A stretch of 64,000 nt of DNA from Chryseobacterium sp. G0186 (GTDB lineage: Bacteria > Bacteroidota > Bacteroidia > Flavobacteriales > Weeksellaceae), in contig NZ_CP033918.1 of NCBI RefSeq assembly GCF_003815675.1, forward strand, positions 2,108,001-2,172,000. The letters run 5' to 3'. Below the pieces are notes generated by a model that saw only the letters and a list, made by a program, of their open reading frames with translations, was not told where the DNA came from and searched no databases. Positions 2,359-14,736 of the stretch are shown here, piece after piece. Position 1 is the stretch's first letter. Each line of letters starts with the position of its first letter. The position numbers and the translations under genes were made by a program.

Positions 2359-3002
2359 AAGTCTTTATTTTCTTGTTTCTTAAAATTCCAGTTGATCAAG
2401 GGAAGTTTGCGTTTCCCATTTTCATTCCACGCTCCAATCTGTATTCCCCGGAAATTCTTACAACTATTATACAATCCGACCTGAATTCCTCTACATTTCT
2501 GGCCTACATTCGCCAATGGAGCTACAGAAACGCCTTTTAATTCATGATGTAAATTGAAAAGTGGAGATATTGCCACCCCGTTTGTTTTAGCATAGGTATT
2601 GATGTTACTCGAAACATTTACTTCCAACCCGTTGGTGATAGTAGGTTCCATATTCATCAATGATAACTGGACTCCGTTAATTTTATTCATTTTGCGTTCA
2701 GGAATAATTTCATAATCATTGTTTAGACTCCATTGATTTGCACCTGGTAAATACATAAGCAGCAACGCTGGAATGAAAAGTCCCACCGGGTTAAGCCCCA
2801 GCCCCAAGCCATTAACTTTTTTAGGAATGATCTCTTCCTCTTCATCAAAATATTTGAGCATGACTCCATTCACATTTTTAACGTTCTTCGAAGGAGCAGT
2901 CCCAATAAATCTTGGTTTCAAAGAATTTAAGTTTATACTATCCTGAGCACTGGCTATGCTTCCTATAAAAAAGCTGATTATTACTAAAAATTGTGTTTTC
3001 AT
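2355..3002 (-). CDS. Secreted protein with LA_2272-like surface repeats
   Basis: A 215-aa protein with a cleavable signal peptide (about residues 1-19, ending SIASA). The C-terminal half repeats a short NG(V/L)-type beta motif: NGVQLSLMN, NGLEVNVSS, NGVAISPLFN, KGVSVAPLAN, RGIQVGLYN, RGIQIGAWN. This periodicity resembles the surface repeats called LA_2272 and suggests an elongated or barrel-like cell-surface structure. No enzyme motif is seen. It is the first gene of a two-gene operon with the CDP-alcohol transferase. Function is unknown. Confidence 0.65.
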   Translation of the reverse strand: MKTQFLVIISFFIGSIASAQDSINLNSLKPRFIGTAPSKNVKNVNGVMLKYFDEEEEIIPKKVNGLGLGLNPVGLFIPALLLMYLPGANQWSLNNDYEIIPERKMNKINGVQLSLMNMEPTITNGLEVNVSSNINTYAKTNGVAISPLFNLHHELKGVSVAPLANVGQKCRGIQVGLYNSCKNFRGIQIGAWNENGKRKLPLINWNFKKQENKDL

Positions 3003-3083
3003 AATTCATAATTTTAAAATTACATTTCAAAATTATCAGCAGAAACTGAACTTTTGAATGCGAAAAAAAATTAAAAAAAATAC

Positions 3084-3091
3084 TACATTTG
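3084..3091 (+). promoter_or_regulatory. -7 promoter element for the HTH/AraC operon
   Basis: TACATTTG matches TAnnTTTG exactly and ends 16 nt before the ATG at 3108. It drives the gene divergent from the secreted repeat protein; minus-strand TAATTTTG at 3028-3035 may serve the latter. Confidence 0.5.
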
Positions 3092-3107
3092 TGAAAATCA
3101 CAAAATC

Positions 3108-4037
3108 ATGCATCAGGAAACTTTATTAAAGGAAATCCGCAGAAAAATTGGTGAGAGATCTTTAAATGATGAAATCGCCAACATTCTTAATATCAGCTAC
3201 GATGCAGCCCACAGGAGAACTTCTTTAAAGGCAAAATTCAGCTTTGAAGAGGCCCTGGAGCTTGCCAAATACTATCAAATTTCACTTGATCAGTTTCTGG
3301 GCACAGAAAATCAATTGGTTGTAAAGAGAACACAACCTGTAAAAACCGCCGAAGATCTTTTGAATTATTTTGAGAATTCTCTCAAGATTCTGAATGTTTT
3401 TCAGAATTTAACAGATTCTAAGGTCTATTATTCTGCCAAGGACATTCCTTTTTTCTATACCATTTCGGATTCAGTCCTTTCCCGCTTCAAGTTTTATGTT
3501 TGGATGAATCTGCTGAATCAGGATAAGTTTCTTAGTCCATTCCATGAGTTTAATATGGAATATCATTCTGTAAAAAATGAAATGCTCAAAGAGCTTTATG
3601 ACAAACAAAACGTCACAGAAATATGGAATGACACCACCATCATGAGTGCTTTAAGACAAATTTCTTTTTATTCCGAAATAGGATTATTAAAAAAAGATGA
3701 TGTCTGGATGATTCTGGATGATCTGAAGAAATTACTACAAGAGCTTGAAAATAAAACACTGGAAAAAAATAATTTTCAGATATATGTCAATGATTTAGTA
3801 ATTTTAAACAACAGTATTTTATTTAAAAATAAACAGCAATGTTCGTTTTTTGTTCCTTTCAGTATGTTCGGATATATGATGACTAATGATAAGCTGACCT
3901 GCGAGGATTCTTTGAGTTATTTTGAACATCAGATTAAAAACTCTAGGTCACTGAACGAATCAGGAAATCGGGAAAGGAAAGTTTTCTTCAATAAAATGTA
4001 TGAACAGATTGATCATCTAAAACATCATGTATCATGA
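3108..4037 (+). CDS. HTH-domain regulatory protein, uncharacterised
   Basis: A 309-aa protein. Residues 1-65 look like a Cro/C1-type helix-turn-helix: LLKEIRRKIGERSLNDEIAN followed by ISYDAAHRRTS and a trailing helix, with a QISLDQFLG cap. The remaining 240 residues are predicted alpha-helical and match nothing I can name; they could bind a ligand or dimerise. The stop codon overlaps the ATG of the following AraC-type gene by 4 nt, so the two regulators are co-translated and probably act together. Confidence 0.65.
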   Translation: MHQETLLKEIRRKIGERSLNDEIANILNISYDAAHRRTSLKAKFSFEEALELAKYYQISLDQFLGTENQLVVKRTQPVKTAEDLLNYFENSLKILNVFQNLTDSKVYYSAKDIPFFYTISDSVLSRFKFYVWMNLLNQDKFLSPFHEFNMEYHSVKNEMLKELYDKQNVTEIWNDTTIMSALRQISFYSEIGLLKKDDVWMILDDLKKLLQELENKTLEKNNFQIYVNDLVILNNSILFKNKQQCSFFVPFSMFGYMMTNDKLTCEDSLSYFEHQIKNSRSLNESGNRERKVFFNKMYEQIDHLKHHVS

Positions 4038-13257: not shown

Positions 13258-14568
13258 ATGGACATCATTGAGCAACTTTACAAAACCTTAGACCAACGCA
13301 AACGTCCTGAAGATGTTGCAGAGATGATTGTTGAACTCATGAAAAGGAACTTAACAATTCAGGAACAAGCTATTTTGAGTAAGGCTGCTAACCGCTCTCT
13401 GAAGAACAGTATGTATGCATATACTTCAATGCTGGAAACCTTTGGTACTGCGGTAGGAGCAGAAAAACAGATCAGGAAAGCCATTGAGATTTTTAAGATC
13501 AGTGAAAGTGAAGACTATGGCTATAATAATGCCGATGGAATTGAAAAATTCATCTATGAAGTATCTCCGTTGATCCATAAAGAAGTTGGGCAAAATAACT
13601 TTAAGACTGACAGGCTTAATAAAGATCTCAGACAACTGGCCGGATTGGATATTTCCAAACGAAATTACAATAAGAAATGGAGACTTTTGAAACGGATTGA
13701 AATACGTCTTCATAAATTCATTCATGAATCAAAAAAAATTGAACTTCAGAAAATAGCCAAGCATGGGCTTTCTCACACAATTAGTTTTGAAGACTTCAGC
13801 AATGATTTGAATACAGCTAGCTTTATTGCTTATTTCAATGCACGAAGCAATGTCAGAAGTACATTCACTAATCAAAGTCAGGAAAGACCATTTGATGAAA
13901 TATGTGAAATGCTGTTCAACAGATGTCAGCAGAATCCGGTTGGAACAAACTGGCTAGCCATTTCCTATATATATTCTGATCATAAAATTTTACAGCACCT
14001 AAATGACGAACAGAAAGGAAAATTATTAGGTAAATGGACTGCTATTCTTAAGGAAATTTCAGATTTTCTGGAAGAACTCTGGAATGAAAATGATATTTAT
14101 AGAAAAACAATGGCTGTAAAGAAAGGTAATGATTCCACGACCTGGAATAATACCGCCGGAGCCTGGAATAAAGCCAGAGATAATTGGATGAACCTTATTT
14201 ATGCTCTTGGTATGGACTCTATTCTTGAAGATATCTGCTTTGGAAAAGTAATGCGATTAATGGCAGCAGATGTTATCGCATGGCATTTATCAACAGGAGG
14301 TAAGATTGATCCTAATACAGAAGTTTGGAATACAGTACCTTTGCCATGGGAAGTTTTTCAGGAAAGAATTTTCTGCAATAAAGAAATGATTGTCAATGCC
14401 TGTAAAAAAGCTGATATTGATCCTGAAAAATCAGGATGGATTGCTCCTCGTATTCACGGAATAAGTGAGTTTAAGCCTACTCCGGAATTGGTGCATGGAG
14501 TAATGGTATCCAATCCTTTTCTTGCCAAAATTTTAAGACAAAATAAATATTTTTCAGGAAAAATCTGA
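13258..14568 (+). CDS. Uncharacterised 436-aa protein linked to tandem tRNA-like RNAs
   Basis: I recognise no named family. It is a basic, predicted mostly alpha-helical, soluble protein. The N-terminal 160 residues are Lys/Arg-rich (NYNKKWRLLKRIEIRLHKF). The central and C-terminal parts hold Trp-rich segments that look conserved: PVGTNWLAISYIYSDHK, NNTAGAWNKARDNWMNLIYA, and VWNTVPLPWEVFQER. There is no nuclease, kinase or vWA motif I can see, and it does not resemble the Ro60/TROVE N terminus. The stop is 13 nt before the first of two tRNA-like sequences on the same strand, so the RNAs probably lie in its transcript. That placement and the basic surface suggest RNA binding, which is inference. 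Confidence 0.7.
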   Translation: MDIIEQLYKTLDQRKRPEDVAEMIVELMKRNLTIQEQAILSKAANRSLKNSMYAYTSMLETFGTAVGAEKQIRKAIEIFKISESEDYGYNNADGIEKFIYEVSPLIHKEVGQNNFKTDRLNKDLRQLAGLDISKRNYNKKWRLLKRIEIRLHKFIHESKKIELQKIAKHGLSHTISFEDFSNDLNTASFIAYFNARSNVRSTFTNQSQERPFDEICEMLFNRCQQNPVGTNWLAISYIYSDHKILQHLNDEQKGKLLGKWTAILKEISDFLEELWNENDIYRKTMAVKKGNDSTTWNNTAGAWNKARDNWMNLIYALGMDSILEDICFGKVMRLMAADVIAWHLSTGGKIDPNTEVWNTVPLPWEVFQERIFCNKEMIVNACKKADIDPEKSGWIAPRIHGISEFKPTPELVHGVMVSNPFLAKILRQNKYFSGKI

Positions 14569-14581
14569 AAGTAAAATAAAA

Positions 14582-14657
14582 AGGATAGGTTAGTTCAGTG
14601 GTAGAACACCCGGCTCTTCATCCGGGTTGACACAGGTTCGAGCCCTGTACCTATCCT
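14582..14657 (+). tRNA. tRNA-like RNA 1, cloverleaf with 8-nt anticodon loop
   Basis: All arms fold. The acceptor GATAGGT (14584-14590) pairs with ACCTATC (14649-14655) and can extend to 9 bp from 14582 to 14657. The D stem is GTTC/GAAC around AGTGGTA. The anticodon stem is CCCGG/CCGGG. The variable loop is 5 nt. The T stem ACAGG/CCTGT has the canonical loop TTCGAGC. The anticodon loop is CTCTTCAT, eight bases instead of seven, so the anticodon is ambiguous: CUU after U33, UUC if one C is inserted, or a four-base CUUC. No CCA is encoded. It may be a functional unusual tRNA, a frameshift suppressor or a tRNA mimic. Confidence 0.75.
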
Positions 14658-14661
14658 AATT

Positions 14662-14736
14662 TCTGATATAGCTCAGTGGCAGAGCATCCGGCTCTTGGAC
14701 CGGGAAGACACAGGTTCGAGCCCTGTTATCAGACCA
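14662..14736 (+). tRNA. tRNA-like RNA 2, cloverleaf with 8-nt anticodon loop
   Basis: The acceptor TCTGATA pairs with TATCAGA (7 bp). The D stem GCTC/GAGC encloses AGTGGCA. The anticodon stem TCCGG/CCGGG includes one wobble. The variable loop is 5 nt. The T arm, with loop TTCGAGC, is identical to that of RNA 1. The loop is CTCTTGGA, again eight bases, with the same CTCTT start. It can be read as CUU, UUG with an inserted C, or the four-base CUUG. CCA is encoded directly after the stem (14734-14736), leaving no unpaired discriminator unless the acceptor is 6 bp. It begins 4 nt after RNA 1 and is clearly its paralogue. Confidence 0.75.

Follow-up and report, generated by a model that had tools for sequence, protein, structure and literature searches.

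What function could be served by two transfer RNA (tRNA)-shaped RNAs that have enlarged anticodon loops and are encoded next to the gene of an orphan protein? The question is raised by a 64,000-nucleotide (nt) stretch of the Chryseobacterium sp. G0186 genome (contig NZ_CP033918.1, positions 2,108,001 to 2,172,000 of the forward strand; hereafter the window), in which a gene for a protein of 436 amino acids (aa) and an RNA pair, RNA 1 and RNA 2, make up a short cassette. The sequence comparisons described below give good support to the view that protein and RNAs are two parts of one system, and the cassette looks like an undescribed one: no published description was found in the literature searched, whose coverage leaves out most subscription journals, and the tools used turned up no relative of the protein that has been described. 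As for function, the reading that is tentatively favoured here, with some doubt, is that the cassette could be a stand-alone mobile ribonucleoprotein (RNP) whose RNAs display a replaceable, anticodon-like bait in tRNA conflicts.

The RNA pair and its partner protein

Exactly two tRNA-like genes are found in the window by ARAGORN, at 14583-14657 (cttc) and 14662-14735 (cttg), both with four-base 'anticodons'. From acceptor to acceptor, RNA 1 covers 14584..14655 and RNA 2 covers 14662..14733, both on the plus strand; their RF00005 bit scores of 57.5 and 56.4 (gathering score 29) fall between the lowest (37.3) and the highest (73.7) among the 82 Rfam tRNA matches of the genome. An earlier, sequence-only reading of this DNA had described full cloverleaves with D loops AGTGG, T loops TTCGAGC and 8-nt anticodon loops, CTCTTCAT and CTCTTGGA, all of which is confirmed by ARAGORN, Rfam and the sequence itself. 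The loops lie at 14614..14621 in RNA 1 (plus strand; CUC followed by a variable UUCAU) and at 14692..14699 in RNA 2 (plus strand; CUC followed by a variable UUGGA), as read from the sequence and the RNA parse. Both RNAs thus have the cloverleaf and the D/T loop core of a canonical elongator tRNA, and 8 nt in place of its 7-nt anticodon loop. The extended acceptor proposed for RNA 1 is parsed as G-1 opposite C73, outside the usual seven pairs. The T arms are indeed identical; the suggestion that the repeat might be recent does not hold, since RNA1 (acceptor GATAGGT) and RNA2 (acceptor TCTGATA) stay distinct across Chryseobacterium, Sphingobacterium, Aquimarina and others, and a recent tandem duplication is rejected because both lineages are old and separate.

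The pair is surplus to the normal tRNA set of the genome. The window and the further stretches examined cover all but 12 of the 82 Rfam tRNA matches, and in the 68 other tRNA genes found in these stretches by ARAGORN the anticodon loop is 7 nt without exception (68/68); ordinary genes for Glu (ttc) and Lys (ttt), five of each, and two for Gln (ttg) are among them, so that the pair cannot be the genome's only, ordinary Glu and Gln genes, an outcome that would have spoken against the sequence-only reading. Five more tRNA genes (His, Asp, Thr, Glu and Leu) are clustered in the same genome from position 4071777 (178-1666 of locus L019), where some of its lowest-scoring tRNA matches are found, and this cluster is perhaps prophage-derived.

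The RNAs had also been tied to the protein encoded upstream, and this link is well supported. In the 61 loci examined, a protein was counted as intact if it was at least 90% covered and had no stop; a parsed RNA lies within 400 nt of the intact protein in 52 of 54 such loci, which include close relatives and are not 54 independent cases, and always on the same strand. The linked loci hold two RNAs in 39 cases, one in 12 and four in 1. The remaining two are L043, in which a deletion has fused RNA1 with RNA2, and L094, where an upstream RNA with a loop of about 14 nt was left unparsed. Among 197 genomes of the bacterial family, a pattern built on the RNA only matches all 5 that have the full protein and 0 of the 192 others; four further protein matches in these genomes consist of two N-terminal remnants and two weak 60-residue matches with stops. 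In viral contigs the strict RNA-only pattern matched 10 stretches, 9 of them with the protein, and a looser pattern matched 18, 11 of them with the protein. Read by eye, all 10 of the looser matches that have a cloverleaf and a loop of at least 8 nt have the protein, and the seven protein-free stretches are four tRNA-Met, two tRNA-Lys-like 7-nt genes and one non-tRNA. When open reading frames (ORFs) were clustered over 40 loci, the protein cluster spanned 39 and no other more than 5, those of 5 being Chryseobacterium neighbours; the cassette is therefore self-contained.

The partner itself (13258..14568, plus strand) is characterised by database scans, relatives and AlphaFold2 as an orphan, mostly helical protein. 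Nothing over the curated cut-off was found for it in Pfam or NCBIfam, including any nuclease or transposase family, and nothing of weight in PADLOC or PHROGs; no PADLOC model matched the window protein, and over 40 family members six models each weakly matched one member (best E 0.00056). A Pfam scan of the same 40 members at E up to 0.5, in which 25 of the 27 matched families were listed, contained neither TROVE nor a synthetase family among those listed at the sequence level, and no known toxin family of weight was found there or in PADLOC. Sequence profiles gave no solved relative. A first AlphaFold2 model is confident and mostly helical (predicted local distance difference test, pLDDT, 82.5), and a second from a wider alignment reaches a pLDDT of 90.7 and a predicted template modelling score of 0.88. 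Foldseek with the whole chain of the first model returned no PDB match at E 0.001, and a renewed structural comparison with VIA gave low-Z, mostly helical proteins only; going by these models a new fold is possible, as is a known one given the VIA matches. The viral library held just two Foldseek matches at E 0.001, uncharacterised proteins at 15-18% identity: A0A3G4ZSE3 of Edafosvirus (E 3.6e-15 with the first model, 1.2e-14 with the second) and A0A5K0U9D9 of Yasminevirus (2.3e-12 and 4.9e-12), both of them giant viruses.

A selected fold with a variable loop

The RNA table had 105 rows and holds 103 after L109 and one tRNA-Met of L113 were dropped; near-copies from L031-L033 make up 5 of the 103 and were excluded from the entropy counts and from the 61 loci. 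The parser is keyed on GGCTC, so that a CUC loop start is built into its table, and it misses divergent RNAs (those of L094, L088 and L089, the first of L083 and the first, 5'-cut one of L074), which were read by eye or with ARAGORN. As parsed, the loop has 8 nt in 76 of the 103 RNAs, 7 nt in 17, 9 nt in 9 and 5 nt in 1, where a few of the 7-nt rows from viral contigs may be ordinary tRNAs; with the loop of about 14 nt the whole range is 5 to about 14 nt. Eight is the usual length of the family, not a rule. Seven-nucleotide loops in relatives had been named as a result that would count against the unusual character of the pair, and they do occur, yet beside the same protein.

The fold is kept by compensatory change. 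In a set of 39 RNAs whose loop has 8 nt, 99.9% of cells are paired and 15 of 21 pairs have changed on both sides; each observed measure was reached by 0 or 1 of 500 shuffles and by no slid control. This covariation upholds the earlier argument that the expanded loops are not a product of decay. Besides the tRNA core, the invariant part of this set consists of the two top anticodon-stem pairs and the start of the loop, GG-CUC...CC. The CUC start is also seen in a motif-free count, being present in 73/73 ARAGORN genes at 45 cellular loci versus 9/68 ordinary tRNAs of the genome. After CUC, the 103 RNAs carry 43 distinct segments; the variable stretch is 2 to 11 nt long and mostly 5. Family-wide, the acceptor stem varies as much as the loop while its pairing is kept. 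A closer comparison is offered by Chryseobacterium, where many loci have the same flanking genes: at this conserved locus RNA2 hardly varies outside its loop and the base that follows the acceptor, with 8 changes in the loop versus 17 over the other 64 positions on the gene tree.

The discriminator base N73 is also free. It is C in 39, A in 25, T in 22 and G in 17 of the 103 RNAs (5 rows being near-copies), versus A in 44, G in 14, T in 7 and C in 2 of 67 ordinary tRNAs of the genome; the constrained N73 of a canonical elongator tRNA is thus absent, and this spread over four bases argues against charging by normal synthetases. The tRNA-like RNAs are probably neither charged nor used in decoding. 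An encoded CCA was considered as a further distinguishing mark, as it is present in 2/22 tRNA-likes of viral contigs versus 14/38 scorable ordinary tRNAs there (6 more unscorable; P 0.03); the mark is weak, and the host itself rarely encodes CCA (4/67 scorable).

The loop as a putative bait, and other readings

The anticodon loop is the cut site of many bacterial toxins and defence nucleases, and the loops of the cassette resemble those of host tRNAs. The sequence-only reading had called them Glu and Gln loops with one inserted C, which is a fair description: the letters after the C are those found in the anticodon region of the genome's own tRNAs, TTCAT at positions 34-38 of tRNA-Glu (TTTTCAT) and TTGG at positions 34-37 of tRNA-Gln (TTTTGGT). 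Among the 25 distinct 5-nt segments of 8-nt loops, 11 agree with a host tRNA at positions 34-37. Shuffling within segments gives a mean of 3.0 matches, with 0 of 2000 shuffles reaching 11, and shuffling columns gives a mean of 6.5 (P 0.0085). These comparisons suggest that the loops likely imitate anticodon loops, but loosely. A bait is favoured because of this enrichment and because loops are swapped at one locus in the otherwise nearly fixed RNA2.

On this reading, the protein and its one to four adjacent RNAs would form an RNP in which the protein binds the invariant part (GG-CUC...CC and the tRNA core), and the variable stretch would be shown as a loose copy of the anticodon loop of some cellular tRNA, Glu- or Gln-like in the window and Lys-, Pro-, Asp-, Asn-, Arg- or Met-like elsewhere. 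As a decoy, the RNP would occupy enzymes that cut or modify anticodons; as a sentinel, cleavage or capture of the RNA would switch the protein. In either version, exchange of the loop would track changing opponents.

Several results weigh against a bait. The frames 32-35, 33-36, 34-37 and 35-38 match 9, 9, 11 and 4 segments, and as other frames match nearly as often, part of the enrichment is T-richness; in addition, 10 of the 25 segments have U at position 37, where tRNAs have a purine. The RNA1 loop of Chryseobacterium evolves no faster than the rest of the molecule (5 changes versus 53 over 64 positions). In five Chryseobacterium genomes, the host tRNA-Glu loop is TTTTCAT in all 13 copies found (with a pattern that left position 38 free), and RNA 1 has TTCAC in three of these genomes and TTCAT and TTCTT in one each, so that exact tracking of the host tRNA-Glu was not found. 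The ORF clusters over 40 loci (10 neighbours scanned) also gave no conserved nuclease or defence gene beside the cassette.

Two known arrangements are among the closest to the cassette. Bacterial Ro60/TROVE proteins bind RNA and have, next to their genes, Y RNAs such as YrlA that contain a tRNA-like domain, and TROVE proteins are also present in some jumbo phages (PMC7790460, PMC7824862). The cassette shares with Ro60 and its Y RNA a protein encoded beside a tRNA-like RNA, and differs in the lack of TROVE among the Pfam matches listed, in an RNA that forms a complete cloverleaf whose anticodon loop varies, and in having no RtcB or other repair gene conserved beside it in the ORF clusters of 40 loci. 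Phage tRNAs with mutated anticodon loops have been proposed to be nuclease-insensitive working tRNAs (PMC10264068). The likeness consists of altered loops, phage tRNA arrays and the proposed link to anticodon nucleases, and the loops of the cassette are likewise altered relative to the tRNAs of this host; the accessible part of that paper names no partner protein, whereas the cassette has a dedicated adjacent one and a loop that is usually enlarged with a fixed start. A report by Burroughs and Aravind from 2016 is said to concern a different tRNA-like RNA, found with SPFH/Band-7 proteins.

In a broader statement, which on the present comparisons we hold at only a little under even confidence, the cassette may represent a new class of mobile RNP in bacteria, plasmids and huge phages, with a distant protein relative in giant viruses, in which the orphan protein would deploy tRNA-shaped RNAs with the anticodon loop as an exchangeable specificity module for tRNA conflicts. 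Few protein-RNA systems are known in which a segment of the RNA can be exchanged, and whole fields have grown from some of them; in the cassette a tRNA serves as the scaffold and its anticodon loop as the segment that is exchanged. A bait, if real, would reveal how the tRNA pool is protected or poisoned by cells, plasmids and large phages.

The RNAs might instead be recoding tRNAs, whose 8-nt loops would read NNN-G quadruplets (GAAG, CAAG) or shift the frame, whose 7-nt versions would read NNG, and for which the orphan protein would be a dedicated partner in maturation, modification or charging. This is unlikely, though several features agree with it: the tRNA core is complete, C32 U33 C34 in all 73 ARAGORN genes would allow every loop to decode codons that end in G, the 7-nt loops resemble C34 anticodons (CUG-GA, CUC-AC, CUU-AA), and some cassettes sit within tRNA arrays of phage-like contigs. 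The frameshift suppressor SufB2 is a mutant of a charged tRNA, whereas the cassette RNAs form a family that has its own protein, an unconstrained N73 and loops ranging from 5 to about 14 nt. What they share is an extra nucleotide in the anticodon loop, described for SufB2 (PMC7803779) and present in both RNA 1 and RNA 2. The suppressor decoding once proposed for the pair is weakened by the spread of N73 over all four bases. Recoding is further opposed by the fact that one RNA body bears Glu-, Lys- or Gln-like loops according to species, which is hard for synthetases, by the absence of a synthetase family from the matches listed, and by the 9-nt and about 14-nt loops. If recoding were nevertheless correct, the cassette would provide quadruplet-type tRNAs that occur in nature as a family and have a partner of their own.

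A role as RNA antitoxin is similarly doubtful; here the tRNA-shaped RNAs would silence the protein, itself a toxin or an enzyme that acts on tRNA, in the manner of type III toxin-antitoxin systems, in which one protein is mobile together with adjacent repeated structured RNAs. The composition of the cassette, one protein with one to four adjacent RNAs, mobile and stand-alone, fits this proposal, as does the position of the RNA relative to the ORF before it: of 29 loci checked, 15 (L056, L060-L064, L068, L069, L071, L072, L076, L079-L081 and L085) have an RNA that overlaps the stop codon of this ORF, which in some of them occupies positions 8-10 of the tRNA itself. Excision of the RNA would thus truncate the messenger RNA and remove its stop, and may couple the amounts of both products. 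The cassette differs from type III systems in that no known toxin family is among the matches listed and that its RNA is tRNA-shaped and lies mostly 3' of the protein gene, not 5'; moreover, an intact protein survives with fused RNAs (L043) or a single RNA (L045, L034).

A guide RNA, in which the variable loop would pair with a target nucleic acid on which the protein acts, is clearly improbable. A variable stretch on an invariant scaffold with a strict protein partner would suit it, but the stretch that varies is short, the window protein matches no nuclease or transposase family over the cut-off, and host tRNA loops, the sole target set tested, show no enrichment for reverse complements of the segments, so that a guide complementary to those loops is rejected. 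The last proposal, that decaying or captured phage tRNA genes happen to lie next to an unrelated gene, is suggested by the L043 fusion, the degenerate second RNA of L034 and the protein remnants of L035 and L036, and is almost certainly wrong for the family given its compensatory pairing and its strict linkage across phyla, decay being real at single loci.

Distribution and surroundings of the cassette

A scan of genome contigs for relatives of the protein returned 38 loci, many from Chryseobacterium and others from Kordia, Aquimarina, Sphingobacterium, Taibaiella, Paraflavitalea, Dysgonomonas, Prevotella and metagenome-assembled genomes (one labelled Acidobacteria); tRNA-like genes are present at 35 of the 38 by ARAGORN. 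Seven of 72,556 plasmid records gave a match (five Streptomyces, one Hymenobacter, one Miltoncostaea), 6 of these loci having been read in sequence, and two overlapping scans of viral contigs gave 11 and 12 loci, with phage head genes near the locus in L086. Three queries against 50,697 records of isolated phages gave 0 matches. The protein is found in 2 of 395 genomes of the phylum, and in the phylum of the Acidobacteria locus in 1 of 247, that one being the seed itself. The plasmids, the phage-like contigs and this patchy occurrence suggest a mobile, horizontally spread cassette.

Within Chryseobacterium, stages of loss can be seen. RNA1 and RNA2 are fused through the T arm in L043 (5311-5420), RNA2 has decayed in L034 (2888-2970) and is missing from L031 and L045, and L035 and L036 hold short N-terminal remnants of the protein.

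A larger operon with an upstream TPR protein and a 137-aa protein was considered and rejected, as both recur in Chryseobacterium loci only. Other common neighbours form clusters of 2 to 4 loci, including some RNA-overlapping ORFs and three genes common to L066 and L067, and none is general. An ADP-ribosylglycohydrolase gene lies directly upstream of the cassette in L058 (2995-3945) and is in no shared cluster among the loci compared. On the Miltoncostaea oceani megaplasmid (L094), the annotation of the roughly 5 kilobases around the protein gene includes two peptidyl-tRNA hydrolases, one RNA ligase family protein and one protein with a nucleotidyltransferase domain, and upstream of an Aquimarina cassette (L060) group II intron matches are found on the minus strand at 2873-3518.
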